A stretch of 64,000 nt of DNA from Chitinilyticum piscinae (GTDB lineage: Bacteria; Pseudomonadota; Gammaproteobacteria; Burkholderiales; Chitinibacteraceae): contig NZ_JADFUA010000004.1 of the NCBI RefSeq assembly GCF_015223195.1, forward strand, positions 186,001-250,000, in the 5' to 3' direction. Position numbers and translations under genes: made by a program. Below the pieces are notes generated by a model. That model did not search any database and had not been told where the DNA came from. It saw only the letters and a list, made by a program, of their open reading frames with translations. This document shows positions 15,691-26,007 of this stretch, piece after piece. Every line of letters begins with the position of its first letter. Position 1 is the first letter of the stretch.

Positions 15691-15824
15691 GCATCGTTCC
15701 TGACCCTGTTCTTGCGTGACGGCCCAAGGCCGCCATGGCGAAACCCGCATAGCGGCGTGATGTGGTTGGCACCGATGTTTATCCCCGCGATGACGCGGGC
15801 CAACCTTCCTTATCAGGACACACC

Positions 15825-17627
15825 ATGACGCATCCCCTCGCGGACAATGCATTTGTCGCGCTCGGCCTCGACCCCGTTCTGGCGAAAATGCTCGCCGATC
15901 AAGAAATCACTACCCCGACTCCGGTTCAGGAACAGACCATTCCGGCACTGCTGGAAGGCAATGACGTCCTCGCCTCCGCCCAAACCGGCACCGGCAAGAC
16001 CGCAGCGTTCCTGCTGCCCGCACTGCAAAAACTGATGGCGCCGGCCAAGACCCATGCCCGTGGCCCGCGCGTTCTCATTCTTACCCCGACCCGTGAACTG
16101 GCCGAACAGGTTTCCAAGGTGGCCATCTCCTTCTGTCGCCCGATTCCGCGCTGCAAGGTAGTTTGCGTGGTCGGTGGCGTACCGTATCCGGTGCAAAATC
16201 GCCAGATCTCCCAGCCTTACGAAGTGCTGGTTGCCACCCCGGGCCGCCTGCAGGATCTGATGTCCTCGGGTCGCATCGATTTCCGCCGTCTGGAAACCTT
16301 CATCCTCGATGAAGCGGACCGCATGCTCGACATGGGCTTTATCGAAGAAGTCGAAGCCATCGCCTCCGCACTGCCGGCCGATCGCCAGACCGCCCTGTTC
16401 TCGGCCACCGTTTCGCCTTCCGTTGAAGAATTCGCCGCACCGATCCTGCGTGATCCGCTGCGCATCACCGTTGCTCCGGCCGAACGCGAACCGATCGCCC
16501 AGGCGCTGCACTATGCCGACGGCTATGACCACAAGCTCAAGCTTGCCGCGTCGTTCCTGAAGAGCCACAGCGAACAGCAAGCCGTGATGTTCACCGCCAC
16601 CAAGGCTGATGCCGACCAGGTTGCCGACTGGCTGAAGCTGGAAGGCATTCGTGCGGCTGCCATGCACGGCGATCTGCCGCAAAGCGCCCGCCGCCGTACG
16701 CTCGATCGCGTTCGCCGTGGTGAAGTCGACGTACTGGTCGCCACCGATGTGGCCGCTCGCGGTATTGACGTGGCCAGCATCGACCTGGTGATCAACTTCG
16801 ACCTGCCGCGCGCAGCCGAAGACTATATCCACCGCATCGGCCGTACCGGCCGTGCCGGTCGCAGCGGCCAGGCGATTTCGCTGATCAGCCGCAACGATGC
16901 CGTACCGCTGATCCGCATCCGCAACGCCTACAAGATTGACTTTGAAGAACTCACCGTCGAAGGCCTGGAAGCCAACTTCCGCCCGCGTGACCGCAAGCAG
17001 GGTGGTGGTCGCGGCGGTCGCCCGCAAGGCAATGGCGGCGGCCGTCGTTTCGAAGGTGGCCGCAATGAAGGCCGCTCTTTCGATGGCGAACGTCGTGCAC
17101 CGCGTCGCGATGGCAACAACTTCGACTCTGGCAAGCGTTTCGGCGGCAACAAGCGTGAAGAAGGCAACCGCTTTGCCCCGAGCCGTGATTTCGACGCCAG
17201 CCACCGCTTCGATGGCACGCGCAGCGAAGACCAGCATGGCGAAGCACGCCGTGAACGCGAACCGCGCCACCACGAAACCCGCGGCTTCAACGACAGCCAC
17301 GGGCGCAAGCCACAAGGCTTTGGCGGCGACCGTCCGGCACGCCAGGGTCAGGGCGAAGCCCGCTACGGTGCTCCGCGTGGCGAAGGCAAGCGTTTTGACG
17401 GCCCGCGTGATGGCGCTCCGCGTCGTGAATCCGCACCGCAAGATGGCAAGCGCTTCGACTCCCGCGGCGGCGACAACCGCTTTGACCGTTCGCGCAGCAG
17501 CGATGACCGTCCGCGTCGCGAAGGCGGATTCTCCCAGCGTACCGACAGCCGCCCGGCCGGCAACCGCGAAGGTGGCGAGCGCCGCCCGAGCTTTGGCCAG
17601 AAGCCGCGCGCGCCGCGTTTCGGCTAA
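15825..17627 (+). CDS. DEAD-box ATP-dependent RNA helicase with long Arg/Gly-rich tail
   Basis: The 600-residue protein unwinds RNA duplexes, probably in ribosome assembly, mRNA decay or cold adaptation. Residues 20-400 hold all core motifs: Q motif TPTPVQEQ (31-37), Walker A AQTGTGKTA (Lys58), PTRELA, TPGR, DEAD at about 162, SAT, ARGID and HRIGRTGR at about 336. The last 190 residues are low complexity and basic, with phased Arg-Phe-Asp-Gly type repeats (GRRFEGG, KRFGGN, HRFDGT, KRFDGP, NRFDRS), a probable disordered RNA-binding tail. It is closest in layout to RhlE. ATG 15825 has AGGA upstream; the in-frame extension to 15762 is rejected. A strong terminator follows. Confidence 0.93.
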   Translation: MTHPLADNAFVALGLDPVLAKMLADQEITTPTPVQEQTIPALLEGNDVLASAQTGTGKTAAFLLPALQKLMAPAKTHARGPRVLILTPTRELAEQVSKVAISFCRPIPRCKVVCVVGGVPYPVQNRQISQPYEVLVATPGRLQDLMSSGRIDFRRLETFILDEADRMLDMGFIEEVEAIASALPADRQTALFSATVSPSVEEFAAPILRDPLRITVAPAEREPIAQALHYADGYDHKLKLAASFLKSHSEQQAVMFTATKADADQVADWLKLEGIRAAAMHGDLPQSARRRTLDRVRRGEVDVLVATDVAARGIDVASIDLVINFDLPRAAEDYIHRIGRTGRAGRSGQAISLISRNDAVPLIRIRNAYKIDFEELTVEGLEANFRPRDRKQGGGRGGRPQGNGGGRRFEGGRNEGRSFDGERRAPRRDGNNFDSGKRFGGNKREEGNRFAPSRDFDASHRFDGTRSEDQHGEARREREPRHHETRGFNDSHGRKPQGFGGDRPARQGQGEARYGAPRGEGKRFDGPRDGAPRRESAPQDGKRFDSRGGDNRFDRSRSSDDRPRREGGFSQRTDSRPAGNREGGERRPSFGQKPRAPRFG

Positions 17628-17639
17628 GCCAGCCATGGC

Positions 17640-17677
17640 AAATAAAAAGGGATACCTGAGGGTATCCCTTTTTATTT
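17640..17677. terminator. bidirectional terminator between helicase gene and rquA
   Basis: A perfect 17-bp stem that includes A5/T5 tracts on both arms (AAATAAAAAGGGATACC and its complement) with loop TGAG. The symmetric T-rich arms can stop transcription from both convergent genes. Confidence 0.93.
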
Positions 17678-17716
17678 GGCGATTCGCCTTGACTACACGG
17701 CAATACCCGGCAATGT

Positions 17717-18427
17717 TTACTTGCTGTGTGTGACCACGACGCGCTGGTATACGCCCCCGAAGAAGGTTTGCTTCTCCCAGCTGAAACGCCCGGCATCCCG
17801 CGCGTAGCTGCTGATTTCGCGCTGCCACAGTGTCTTGGCAAACGGCTCCAGCAGTGCATTGACCACACGCAGGATCCAGCCTACCGGATGCAGGGCATGC
17901 GGGCGAGAGTAATCAACAAATACCGCCTTGCCGTGCACCGGCAATTGATCGAGGATGTTGTTGACGATGGCAGCCTTCTTGTCTTCCGGTACTTCATGCA
18001 GCAGGAAGAAGCTGCAGATCAGATCGTATGGGGCTTCTTCCGGTGCGCGCCAGACCGCCGCATCGGCGCGCATCACGCGAGCCCAGTATTTACTCCTCAG
18101 CTTGGCTGAGCCGTGCTCGATCTGGATTGGCGTGATATCGGTCAGATGGAAGCTGCCACCAGGCCCTACCTTGTCGGCCGCACGTGCAACCAGATCACCA
18201 TACACATGCGCCACCTGCCACACCCGCATGCCGGGCTCGATTTCGGCCAGATAAGATCGCATCAACCGCTGATCGTTGCCGAACAGCAAGGTGGTTACCA
18301 CCAGATTGCGGTCCAGAAACTTCACCCAATTCGGATCCACGTAGGCCCAGTCATACACTTCGGTCATGTACTCGGGAACGCCTTCGTAGTACGGATTTTC
18401 CTTCAGTTCGGGGTGATTGCGGGTCAT
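17717..18427 (-). CDS. rquA: rhodoquinone biosynthesis enzyme RquA
   Basis: RquA replaces the 2-methoxy group of ubiquinone with an amino group, giving rhodoquinone, the low-potential quinone used for fumarate reduction. The 236-residue protein is a class I SAM-fold relative with features I recognise from RquA. They are YDWAYVDPNWVKFLDRN at about 25-41, LLFGNDQRLMRSYL, QVAHVYGDLVARAA in place of the normal glycine-rich SAM motif, FFLLHEVPEDKK, LEPFAKTLWQREI and the C-terminal FFGGVYQRVVV. Those segments separate it from UbiE/UbiG/COQ5 methyltransferases. It has an unusually good SD (GGAGGAGG) and is a single-gene unit bounded by terminators. The assignment is by sequence pattern from memory; a profile search would settle it. 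Confidence 0.87.
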   Translation of the reverse strand: MTRNHPELKENPYYEGVPEYMTEVYDWAYVDPNWVKFLDRNLVVTTLLFGNDQRLMRSYLAEIEPGMRVWQVAHVYGDLVARAADKVGPGGSFHLTDITPIQIEHGSAKLRSKYWARVMRADAAVWRAPEEAPYDLICSFFLLHEVPEDKKAAIVNNILDQLPVHGKAVFVDYSRPHALHPVGWILRVVNALLEPFAKTLWQREISSYARDAGRFSWEKQTFFGGVYQRVVVTHSK

Positions 18428-18537
18428 GCTGACCTCCTCCTTTCGACAGTCGCAGCCAGTCTAACAGCACTCCCTGCCCTCGGGTTTGCGCTGCAACAAG
18501 GCCGGGAGCAATCCTGACATTCCCGTATGACCAGCCC

Positions 18538-18570
18538 ATGAAAAAGCCGGCTGCAAGCCGGCTTTTTCAT
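18538..18570 (-). terminator. Rho-independent terminator of leuB
   Basis: A perfect 14-bp stem (ATGAAAAAGCCGGC and its complement) with a 5-base loop, 16 bases after the leuB stop. The A/T tracts on both arms make it potentially bidirectional. Confidence 0.9.
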
Positions 18571-18586
18571 GGGGCAACGTCAACGC

Positions 18587-19651
18587 TCAGAGCGCAGCCA
18601 CCACCGCATCACCCATGGCCGAGCAGCCAACCTTGATCGTGCCAGCTTCGTAGATATCGGCAGTGCGCAGGCCGTCGGCCAGCACCTTCTTCACCGCGTT
18701 TTCGATGCGCAGCGCCGCAGCTTCTTCATTGAAGGTATAGCGCAGCAGCATCGCGGCCGAGAGGATAGTCGCCAGCGGGTTGGCCACATCCTTGCCGGCG
18801 ATGTCCGGTGCCGAACCGTGGCTGGGCTCGTACAGACCCTTGTTGTTGGCATCCAGCGAGGCACTGGGCAGCATGCCGATCGAGCCGGTCAGCATCGACG
18901 CTTCATCGCTCAGAATGTCGCCGAAGATATTGCCGGTCACCATGACGTCGAACTGCTTCGGCGCTTTCACCAGCTGCATCGCGGCGTTATCGACCAGCAT
19001 GTGGGAAAGCTCCACATCCGGGTACTCCTTGGCCACGTCGGTCATGATTTCCTTCCAGAATTCGGTGGTCTCCAGCACATTGGCCTTGTCGACCGAGCAC
19101 ACCTTCTTGCCGCGCTTTTGCGCCGCCTGGAAGGCGACGTGACCGATACGGCGGATTTCCGACTCGGCGTACAGCATGGTATTGAAGCCTTCGCGCTCAC
19201 CGTTGTCGTTCACGCGAATGCCGCGCGGCTGGCCGAAATAGATGTCGCCAGTCAATTCGCGCACGATCAGGATGTCCAAACCGGACACCACTTCGGGCTT
19301 CAGGGTGGAGGCATTGGCCAGCTCCGGATACAGAATGGCCGGGCGCAGGTTGGCAAACAGGTTCAGATCCTTGCGGATGGCCAGCAAGCCGCGCTCCGGG
19401 CGCAGCGGACGCTCCAGCTTGTCATACTGCGGGCCGCCAACCGCCCCCAGCAGAATGGCATCGGCTTCGCGCGCCAGCTTCTGCGTGAATTCGGGATACG
19501 GGCTGCCGTACTGATCGTACGCCGCGCCACCCAGCGGCGCTTCGGTCAGCTCGATCGGCATGCCTTCCGCTGCCAGCTTGTTCAGGACTTTTTTCGCTTG
19601 CGCGACAATCTCGGGACCAATGCCGTCACCGGGCAGAACCAAAATCTTCAT
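18587..19651 (-). CDS. leuB: 3-isopropylmalate dehydrogenase
   Basis: LeuB oxidises and decarboxylates 3-isopropylmalate to 2-ketoisocaproate in leucine synthesis. It has 354 residues with the N-terminal [18 protein letters not shown], the substrate-binding [19 protein letters not shown], and the metal/NAD motif [26 protein letters not shown]. The start is set at ATG 19651 (GGAG seven bases upstream), not the longer frame. Unlike the usual leuCDB cluster, it is separated from leuD by nagB and its terminator, so it must have its own promoter in 19652-19757, where a dyad element also lies. Confidence 0.96.
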
Positions 19652-19674
19652 AGGTGTTCTCCAGTCAATCAATA

Positions 19675-19806: not shown

Positions 19807-20538
19807 TTACGGCTGGCGCTTGTATTCCACGTCGCAATCGGTCATCACGATCACGCGCGGGTGCGTTTGCAGCAGCGAAGCCGGCACTTGCGTGGTAATC
19901 GGGCCATTCAGAGTGGCATCCAGAATGGCGGCCTTCTCGGCGCCCTTCACCACCAGCAGGATGGCCTTGGCCTGCATGATCGAACCCATGCCCATGGTTA
20001 CGGCGTGCGTCGGCACTTCGTCGAGGCTGTTGAAGAAGCGCTTGTTGGCTTCGCGGGTTTCGTCCTTCAGGGTCACCTTGTAGGTGAAGCGCGACAATTG
20101 GGTGTCAGGCTCGTTGAAGCCGATGTGGCCGTTGTGGCCAATGCCCAGCAGTTGCAGGTCAACCGGACCTTGCTCGTACATCATTTCGTCGTAGCGGCGG
20201 CATTCGGCATCCACATCGGCGGCATTGCCGTTCGGAACATGGGTGTTGGCCGGGTTGATGTCGATGTGGTCAAACAGGTTGCGCTGCATGAAGGCGCGAT
20301 AGGATTCCGGATGCGTGATCGGCAGACCGACGTATTCGTCAAGATTGAAGGTCTTGGCTTGCGCGAAGCTCACCAGGCCTTGCTGGTGAGACTTCACGAT
20401 TTCCTTGTACAGGCCAACCGGAGTGCCACCCGTAGCCATGCCCAGAACGGCATTCGGCTTGGCGCGCACGGTGGAGATGATGAGATCGGCTGCGGCGCGA
20501 TCGAGGTCGGCCTGATTCTTGAACTTATGCAGGATCAT
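19807..20538 (-). CDS. nagB: glucosamine-6-phosphate deaminase
   Basis: NagB converts glucosamine 6-phosphate to fructose 6-phosphate and ammonia, linking amino-sugar catabolism to glycolysis. In 243 residues it shows MATGGTPVGLYKEI (phosphate loop), TFNLDEYVGLP with the catalytic Asp, LLGIGHNGHIGFNEPDT with the catalytic His, and the C-terminal domain present in shorter NagB forms. E. coli NagB has 266 residues, so the allosteric C-terminal tail is absent, suggesting the non-allosteric Bacillus-like type. The gene sits between leuD and leuB with its own terminator; no nagA or nagE is adjacent. It fits a chitin diet together with the chitinase at 24034. Confidence 0.96.
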   Translation of the reverse strand: MILHKFKNQADLDRAAADLIISTVRAKPNAVLGMATGGTPVGLYKEIVKSHQQGLVSFAQAKTFNLDEYVGLPITHPESYRAFMQRNLFDHIDINPANTHVPNGNAADVDAECRRYDEMMYEQGPVDLQLLGIGHNGHIGFNEPDTQLSRFTYKVTLKDETREANKRFFNSLDEVPTHAVTMGMGSIMQAKAILLVVKGAEKAAILDATLNGPITTQVPASLLQTHPRVIVMTDCDVEYKRQP

Positions 20539-24033: not shown

Positions 24034-26007
24034 TTACTTCGCGACGTCAGCCATGGCCTTGGTCAATGCTGCATCCGCGGTGTCCGCATCCAGCGACCAG
24101 CTCATCAGGCCGTTCAGTCCCTTGGCCTTGACGTACTGCACCTTGCTGGCGATGGTGGTCGGATCGTCGTAGCTCCACCAGTCACCAGTACTGGTATACA
24201 GATAGAGCTGCTTGGTGACCGGATGGTACTTGCGGGTTCCGGTCGCAGTCACCAGCGCACGGTAATCACCGTAGCCGGCCTCTGTACTCACACCCACCTT
24301 GCCGGCTGCACGGGTAGCCTTCTGATACAGGCCATCGCCATTCGGGCCCGCCGGTACACCACCCCAGCCGCGGCCGTAATACGGCACACCCAGCACCAGT
24401 TTATTGGCCGGCATGCCCGCATTGATCAGCGTATTTACTGCGGTATCGATGTTGTACTTGCCAGCAACCGTATTGGCGCCCGGATCGGCCGGATCCGGAT
24501 ACAGGTGCGAATGGAAGTTCGTCGTATCTTCCCAGCTGCCATGGAAGTCATACGTCATCACGTTAACCCAGTCCATGTACTTGCTGTAGTCGGCCGGATT
24601 GGTGTTGGAGATCTTGTCCACACCGGCACCGATAGCCGCAGTCAGGTAGAAGTGCTTGTTGCCATTGGCAGCACCGTACGCCTCCAGCTGCTTGCGGAAT
24701 TCAGCCATCAGCAAGGTGAAGTTTTCCTTGTCGGCAGCGGAGGCCACATTGCCATCCAGACCACCGCCACCCGGGTATTCCCAGTCGATGTCAAAGCCGT
24801 CGAAGATCCCGGCAGCGGCTGCTGCACCACCGGCCGGATCCCCACCGCTCTTCTTCAGGTTACCCTTCAGATAGACGTCGATACACGAGGCCACCAGCTT
24901 CTGGCGGTTGGCATCGCTCGCTGCGGCAGTCGAGAAATACTTCGACCAGGTCCAGCCGCCCAGGGAGATCAGCACCTTCATGTTCGGGTATTTCTTCTTC
25001 AGCTTCTTGAGCTGGTTGAAATTACCCTTGAGCTTGTCTTCCCAGACGTCACCCACGCCATCGACCGAGTCGCTGGCCTTGTAATCCATCTGGTAGTCGG
25101 CCCAGGCGTCGCCGCCATCGCCTGCGGTGTTGTTCTCGTTAGCCTTGTTGATGCCGCTGTCACACTGCACCGAACCATCGGCCTGACGATAGATATTGCC
25201 AAAGGCGTAGTTGATGAAGGTGAGCTTGCCAGCAGCACCGCTGGTATCAACCGCTTTCACAAAGTAGGCACTGTCATACACGCCCCACTGGGTGAAGTAG
25301 GCACCAACCTGCGGCTTGTCCGGAGCCGGAACCACGCTACCTGTCGGAGTCGGGGTAGACGTCGGAGTCGGGGTGGCTGTCGGCGTCGGAGTAGCCGTCG
25401 GCGTCGGAGTAGCTGTCGGGGTCGGAGTAGCTGTCGGGGTCGGAGTAGCTGTCGGCGTCGGAGTAGCTGTCGGTGTCGGAGTGGCTGTCGGGGTCGGAGT
25501 AGCTGTCGGAGTCGGAGTGGCACCACAAGCCCCCAGATCCTTCCAGGCGCCCCATTCGGCATTGCTAGGCGTATCGGTTGTCCACCACTTGGCTTCGTAA
25601 TTGCGCCCGTTATAGGTCACTCGCTGGCCGCCGGTATAGGCAGTGCCGGACTTCCAGGTCACATAACAGCCGGCTGCCGGAGTCGGGGTTGCTGTCGGAA
25701 GTGGTGTTGCTGTCGGAAGTGGTGTTGCTGTCGGAGCCGGTGTTGCTGTCGGAGCCGGTGTCGCGGTCGGAGCTGGCGTCGCTGAACCGGTCACATCCTT
25801 CCACAGCGTCGGCGAGGCCAGCGGATTCCAGCCGGTGCCCACATAAGCGGTGTGGGTGACCAGTGCCTGGTAGTCACGCCCGTTATAACTTACATAAGCA
25901 CCAGCTTGATAGGTATTTCCTTCAGCCCATTGCGGGTAGGTTGCCGCAGAAGCATAAACAGCAAAGCTTGTTGATAACAAAGCCATTATTAGCTTTTTCT
26001 GATCCAT
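24034..26007 (-). CDS. secreted GH18 chitinase with two CBM5/12 domains
   Basis: The enzyme cleaves beta-1,4 bonds of chitin outside the cell. The 657-residue layout is as follows: signal peptide 1-21 (cut after ASA); CBM5/12 domain at 23-73 ([20 protein letters not shown]); Pro/Thr linker 75-111; second CBM5/12 at 112-162 ([20 protein letters not shown]); longer Thr-Pro linker to about 226; GH18 barrel from about 230 to the end. The catalytic motif is DGFDIDWE with the acid Glu at residue 410. SLGGW and MTYDFHGSW, both GH18 signatures, are present. The Asn-rich insert with Cys pairs suggests a ChiA/ChiC-like family A catalytic domain. RBS is GGAGGG. It is a single gene with its own terminator. 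Confidence 0.94.
25342..25517 (-). repeat. Thr-Pro linker repeat inside the chitinase (about ten 18-bp units)
   Basis: Tandem 18-base units encode the hexapeptide TPTPTA, with one TPTPTS variant near the catalytic domain. Third-position changes between units show selection on the protein. Copy number may vary between strains. Confidence 0.9.
25680..25780 (-). repeat. Pro/Thr linker repeat between the two CBMs
   Basis: About six 18-base units encode TATPAP and TATPLP hexapeptides joining CBM 1 and CBM 2. The first three carry Ala, the next two Leu, so units diverged in two blocks. Confidence 0.85.

Follow-up and report, generated by a model that had tools for sequence, protein, structure and literature searches.

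The window analysed here, the whole 64,000-nucleotide stretch of Chitinilyticum piscinae DNA, contains a gene whose product, judged from its sequence, is a true RquA, the enzyme of rhodoquinone (RQ) biosynthesis, and upstream of it lies a predicted FNR/CRP-family operator followed at fixed distance by a predicted -10 element. As an annotation of a known enzyme this is sound, and within the Chitinibacteraceae carriage of rquA is the rule; what goes beyond annotation is a testable operator for turning rhodoquinone on, predicted to the base and having a spacing that many genera share. In the mechanism that we propose, C. piscinae RquA would swap one methoxy group of ubiquinone for a SAM-derived amino group, yielding rhodoquinone, with the ubiquinone substrate being made without oxygen through ubiUVT. 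The gene would be transcribed alone from a predicted class II promoter of the FNR/CRP type, falling oxygen would lead to rhodoquinone being added to the quinone pool, and rhodoquinol would hand the electrons of complex I on to an acceptor of low potential; fumarate, reduced via the single succinate dehydrogenase (SDH) working in reverse, appears the likeliest. Taken as a whole, a resident RquA, anaerobic ubiquinone synthesis, an FNR/CRP-type promoter and rhodoquinone formed at low oxygen make up a reading that we consider very probable.

The encoded enzyme and its gene

In R. rubrum, RquA replaces a methoxy group of ubiquinone (UQ) with an amino group drawn from SAM in an Mn2+-dependent manner, giving RQ. 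The C. piscinae protein (Table 1) matched the NCBIfam equivalog model NF038261 (rhodoquin_RquA) with 293.7 bits (E 8.6e-88; cut-off 175) across 217 of the 218 profile positions, whereas the UbiE profile NF001240 gave the same protein 29 bits against a cut-off of 378, placing it outside UbiE/COQ5. Its motif I reads VWQVAHVYGDL and lacks the GxG that UbiE/COQ5 C-methyltransferases keep; a separate UbiE encoded in the same genome has an intact motif I, VLDIAGGTGDL. Residues Q71, Y76, G77 and D97 were identical in all 39 aligned RquA rows, and position 122 was D in 34 of these and N in five. D97 and D122 lie 25 residues apart, matching the spacing of D118 and D143 in R. rubrum RquA (numbering from the available text of PMC9814641), with which we equate them by spacing and motif and not by direct alignment.

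A phylogeny, proposed as a check in a first-pass annotation of this DNA, grouped the protein with RquA and outside the UbiE clade, UbiE serving as outgroup. In this sample of 20 RquA and 15 UbiE-like rows the two groups were split at 99/96 support and in 99% of 200 bootstrap trees, the bootstrap being rough (correlation 0.985), the groups meeting on long branches, and one UbiE-like row (L159) being just 30% identical to the UbiE of C. piscinae itself. An AlphaFold2 model built from the 39-row alignment (pLDDT 89.8, pTM 0.88) adopted the class I methyltransferase fold common to RquA and the SAM-dependent UbiE/COQ5 enzymes, with a phospholipid N-methyltransferase as the best structural match, and generic Pfam methyltransferase matches were also obtained. 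Both the RquA identity and the altered SAM motif named in the first-pass annotation are upheld by these data, motif I having changed while the fold is kept.

The generic Pfam matches and the top structural match favour an alternative in which the protein is a relative of RquA and UbiE whose methylation substrate is a quinone or some other lipid and which makes no rhodoquinone. We give this almost no credence in view of an equivalog score far above cut-off, the position in the tree together with RquA, a disrupted motif I alongside invariant Q71, Y76 and G77, and the presence of a separate UbiE whose motif is intact. As a true RquA, the protein itself is unremarkable: it has in common with R. 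rubrum RquA and the NF038261 family the equivalog profile, the altered motif I, the two aspartates at their constant distance, and the use of a single enzyme for the step from UQ to RQ. Profile, tree, residues and structure model, together with the presence of the precursor pathway, support a capacity for making rhodoquinone, and we infer that C. piscinae may produce it. A counterpoint is that E. coli carrying rquA from a Desulfobacterota genome made no RQ (PMC13386864, partial text).

Table 1 Features at the rquA locus of C. piscinae, in window coordinates
Feature	Position	Strand	Basis or remark
DEAD-box RNA helicase, convergent to rquA	15762..17627	+	NCBIfam scan
Bidirectional terminator-like hairpin, helicase/rquA convergent	17639..17678		-25.0 and -28.3 kcal/mol
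rquA, rhodoquinone biosynthesis enzyme RquA (predicted)	17717..18427	-	ATG start, 236 aa; profile, tree, AlphaFold2 model
Shine-Dalgarno AAAGGAGGAGG, AAGGAGG core 8 nt before ATG	18433..18443	-	Read from sequence
Predicted -10 element TAGACT with extended TG	18458..18463	-	TAnnnT 29 nt from operator centre
Predicted FNR/CRP-family operator TTGTTGCAGCGCAA, centre at -41.5 of predicted start	18486..18499	-	TTG-N8-CAA
Terminator-like hairpin after leuB, upstream of rquA promoter	18535..18573		-32.8 and -33.4 kcal/mol
leuB, 3-isopropylmalate dehydrogenase	18587..19672	-	TIGR00169 498.7 vs 353.2 bits

The layout of the gene fits, and looks like, a one-gene transcription unit. Compared with shuffled sequences, the hairpin between rquA and the helicase gene reached z -7.6 on both strands, and the one between leuB and the rquA promoter z -5.7 and -7.5 on the two strands. 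The lone gene, the very strong Shine-Dalgarno sequence and the hairpins on both sides had all been described in the first-pass annotation and are indeed there; the "cassette" that it saw in them is an interpretation, not an observation. Upstream of rquA and on the same strand lies leuB, and the best DEAD-box NCBIfam models for the helicase on the other side all scored below their equivalog cut-offs. Neither neighbour is part of the rhodoquinone function. Helicase genes are found near rquA, in 12-kb loci, in five of ten family genera (g1, g3, g5, g8 and g9), with RhlE-type DEAD-box helicases in the four genera other than that of C. piscinae (L035, L037, L039, L040, L051). A conserved pairing of helicase and rquA was rejected, since the RhlE-type genes elsewhere and the helicase near C. 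piscinae rquA are distinct paralogues, and no functional role is claimed.

A promoter-like element upstream of rquA

The canonical FNR box has the consensus TTGATNNNNATCAA. Searching for it in the 3.7-kb rquA locus of C. piscinae returned 13 sites with up to three mismatches where 7.8 are expected, a count reached by 12 of 200 shuffles, and the box was rejected as a candidate in this form. Across 103 rquA upstream regions, its best match had zero or one mismatch in 2, two in 22, three in 59 and four in 20. TTGG...CAA strings recurred among these matches, which led us to test TTG-N8-CAA.

Of 102 distinct upstream regions, many of them from close relatives, 57 have this motif at 50-115 nt from rquA, against a mean of 1.4 and a maximum of 6 in base shuffles, the motif having been found in the same data in which it was counted. 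The spacing of the -10 element was not part of that choice: among the 56 rquA sites located 60-95 nt before the gene, 50 have a TAnnnT whose first base is exactly 29 nt past the operator centre, and any other offset from 15 to 49 is seen in at most four. The spacer between operator and -10 varies in sequence and is constant in length, and the two elements together give the consensus TTGGYYYAGCKCAA. Scored with a leave-one-out matrix, which omits the scored row only and not its relatives, the C. piscinae copy reached 19.1 (99% shuffle bound, 7.2; largest of 2040 shuffles, 17.8). With this matrix 57 of the 102 regions exceeded the 99% bound, and in 54 of these the site is 65-87 nt ahead of the start; the other three, with sites elsewhere, probably reflect chance.

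Carriers of the element comprise Chromobacterium, Aquitalea, Deefgea, Iodobacter, Chitinibacter, Chitiniphilus, Silvimonas, Paludibacterium and Uliginosibacterium. It was not found in 45 of the 102 upstream regions, a number in which a wrongly cut region (L047, a split gene) and one with a doubtful start (L048) are counted as misses. Nor was it found in the rquA upstream regions of Formivibrio citricus and Propionivibrio dicarboxylicus, both of which are strict anaerobes; that of F. citricus contains TATAAT instead of the operator.

The gapped pattern TTG-N8-CAA-N22-TAnnnT occurs once in the window, at rquA. In 80 named loci (887 kb) it was met 36 times ahead of rquA and at 12 other places, and a narrower version gave 26 matches in the 43 family genomes, 16 of them at rquA (reversed control, 23), with two in the C. 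piscinae genome, one at rquA. A regulon was rejected, as the other ten matches are at chance level and the pattern is not enriched genome-wide (26 vs 23); the only striking feature is its position before rquA. Class II FNR/CRP activator sites centre at -41.5, and the predicted C. piscinae element (18499-18458) has the sequence geometry of a promoter activated in this way. To us it looks like an oxygen-controlled switch, one that often precedes rquA in the family.

A similar arrangement precedes ubiU. A TTGA-type site lies 56-84 nt before ubiU in all 21 family loci, ending in TAA in 17, and in 19 of 22 sites (L060 upstream of 4362 (-), L175-L194) the distance from the operator centre to the -10, often TAAGCT, is 29 nt, the 22-site list having been made with a pattern that requires A and the 21-locus counts with a wider one. 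In ubiU, position 4 of the operator is A; in the 56 rquA sites it is G in 52, C in three, T in one and never A, the C. piscinae operator carrying T and differing from the canonical FNR box. Set beside the FNR-activated ubiTUV promoters of PMC11707229 (partial text), ubiU and rquA of the family both show a dyad with a -10 at 29 nt, but ubiU sites are TTGA and mostly end in TAA, whereas rquA sites are mostly TTGG and end in CAA.

The consistent lack of A at position 4 of rquA sites, as opposed to the TTGA-type site before every ubiU, would fit a member of the CRP/FNR family other than FNR binding TTG-N8-CAA, so that RQ and anaerobic ubiquinone synthesis would be controlled separately. We regard this as a tentative possibility, the shared geometry and the similar -10 also fitting a single regulator that binds one site more strongly than the other. 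rquA and ubiU would answer either to one FNR with different strength or to a second regulator. FNR motif searches for ubiT, ubiU and ubiV are described in the available text of PMC11707229 (ISME J 2024), in whose main text, to the same extent, no such search for rquA was found. An rquA operator was found neither there nor in the available text of PMC6529003, and PMC13386864 (partial text) was the one other full-text match in searches on rquA regulation. rquA is among the R. rubrum genes up-regulated in anaerobic growth, according to part of PMC6529003.

Distribution and descent of rquA

We searched 150 genomes for rquA, that of C. piscinae and those of 149 relatives, and obtained scores over cut-off in 45, namely 40 of the 43 Chitinibacteraceae and 5 of 107 genomes from other families of the order. 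One of the five is split over two frames (G142:C25:104570-105222, L047) and is probably a pseudogene or a sequencing error; a sixth candidate outside the family (G057) fell just under the cut-off of 175 with 174.6 bits. Within the family, the sample covers the genera Deefgea, Chitinibacter, Iodobacter, Jeongeupia, Formivibrio, Silvimonas, Chitiniphilus, Chitinolyticbacter and Amantichitinum. All three family genomes without rquA (G007, G016 and G024) belong to one genus, g7, and two of them also miss ubiV, pointing to a joint loss of anaerobic quinone synthesis.

RquA had been portrayed in the first-pass annotation as found only in scattered bacteria and often acquired by transfer. For this copy, the presence of the gene in 40 of 43 family genomes contradicts that picture, as does a tblastn search (1e-5) of plasmid and phage collections, which returned no rquA match. 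Its GC content is 57.7% (window, 60.2%) and its GC3 an ordinary 71.3% (66-80% in 11 other window genes), and on the helicase side five flanking genes are conserved in the sister species G001. All of these observations weigh against rquA being a recent arrival as a mobile cassette. What speaks for such an arrival is the lone gene flanked by two hairpins, a gene order around rquA that varies among genera, and the outcome of an 84-row tree, in which one clade made up of the 36 family RquA rows alone was rejected (AU p 0.003). A family clade was not rejected once 18 rows of the Propionivibrio/Accumulibacter type had been dropped (AU p 0.47), so that the transfer most likely lies on the Propionivibrio/Accumulibacter branch, and we rate a recent arrival in C. 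piscinae as highly unlikely.

The union of the family with the Propionivibrio/Accumulibacter-type rows was not rejected either (AU p 0.35). P. dicarboxylicus RquA pairs with Deefgea at 96/84, and in a larger quick tree the Propionivibrio/Accumulibacter-type proteins (the L063-L142 set) stand beside Deefgea; the one pairing of C. piscinae RquA is with the protein of its sister species, any deeper placement being tentative. The AU tests were run after the first quick tree had been inspected, the quick trees have open forks at 33 of 100 and 25 of 81 inner branches, and the 84-row tree leaves out 19 of 103 rows (the outgroup, distant or long-branched rows, and some of the Accumulibacter type and from Burkholderiales). 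The simplest reading of these trees, and the most likely one, is a transfer out of the Chitinibacteraceae into relatives of Propionivibrio and Accumulibacter and not into the C. piscinae lineage. rquA is, in our view, a real old resident of the Chitinibacteraceae, near-universal there and not exotic. The Propionivibrio/Accumulibacter-type copies are without the promoter element at the rquA-proximal position.

Quinone supply and electron acceptors

In the C. piscinae genome ubiU, ubiV and ubiT are adjacent and all score over their NCBIfam cut-offs, so ubiquinone, the substrate of RquA, could be made without oxygen. Of the 43 family genomes, 40 have a ubiV that passes its cut-off, the misses being two of genus g7 and G041, which has rquA; 39 genomes have both genes, two have neither and one each has either alone (Fisher p 0.0098, a value that ignores shared ancestry and is given no weight). 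menB was over cut-off in none of the 43, and classical menaquinone synthesis by the menB route is not indicated by these searches. NuoD is over cut-off in C. piscinae, and cytochrome bd is present.

The C. piscinae genome encodes one complex II, an ordinary sdhCDAB set, beside mdh, gltA and sucA, which were recognised by eye from their translations and which we take to be TCA-cycle genes. Its SdhA scored 936.9 bits with the SDH equivalog TIGR01816 (cut-off 727.35) and 518.8 with the fumarate reductase model TIGR01176 (cut-off 932.7), and the profile search of the genome found neither a dedicated fumarate reductase, for which the first-pass annotation had suggested looking, nor a second complex II. 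Fumarate reduction would hence need SDH in reverse; the title of a reference in PMC6529003 (partial text) concerns E. coli SDH replacing fumarate reductase. With this single SDH-type complex, and with F. citricus keeping rquA (see below), the earlier statement that RquA implies fumarate respiration is too strong, and for C. piscinae fumarate respiration is something we only infer.

Other rquA carriers are differently equipped. A second complex II flavoprotein, a label that denotes a score band (~716-766 bits) and not a tested subfamily, is present in 9 of 9 genomes of g8 (Iodobacter) and in many of the 51 RquA-positive genomes examined, a set that includes two family genomes again; Iodobacter and Chromobacterium genomes with rquA have it. 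In G071:C277 (L043), the gene for such a second-type flavoprotein and a sequence-divergent rquA share a strand, the former ~1.9 kb ahead of the latter, a neighbourhood of the kind described in PMC5953543 (Stairs and others, partial text), where a complex II gene is linked with rquA.

SdhA/FrdA was over cut-off in 48 of the 51 RquA-positive genomes and in 42 of the 43 family genomes. The family exception is F. citricus (G010), and the other two are a metagenome-assembled genome without SdhA/FrdA (G175) and a genome with pieces only (G191). In the draft genome of F. citricus (~40 contigs, 99% complete) no complex II was found; among its 12 FAD_binding_2 matches a single long one is NadB (936.7 vs 629 bits), and the next-best flavoprotein match reads as a D-amino acid dehydrogenase. 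Its rquA is unbroken and encodes 237 aa (L104, L041), and UbiV, UbiE, NuoD and cytochrome bd are present as well.

Together with the sole SDH-type complex II of C. piscinae, the gene content of F. citricus speaks for a rhodoquinone whose acceptors differ from fumarate, as in the case of a general pool of low potential that serves complex I, and whose main partner is not complex II. The published function of RQ is fumarate reduction (PMC9814641, partial text), a second complex II flavoprotein accompanies rquA in Iodobacter and Chromobacterium and is its near neighbour in G071, and the Formivibrio genome is a draft; we therefore deem this reading unlikely. Even so, F. citricus, with its rquA and no complex II found, offers a natural case for asking whether rhodoquinone has roles besides fumarate reduction. 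One could go further and suppose that in Neisseriales and some Rhodocyclales RQ synthesis is under a CRP/FNR-family regulator of its own that recognises a dedicated operator, TTGGYYYAGCKCAA, different from the FNR-like box at ubiUVT, and that RQ does more than serve fumarate reduction, which would explain the retention of rquA in F. citricus after the loss of its complex II; this combined proposal seems to us rather improbable.

Two further genes of the window deserve mention. A GH18 chitinase with CBM5/12 modules (24034-26007, minus strand) supports a chitin-degrading lifestyle. Between leuB and a leuD-like open reading frame, inside an apparent leucine gene cluster, lies a gene of the glucosamine-6-phosphate isomerase family (19807-20538, minus strand).
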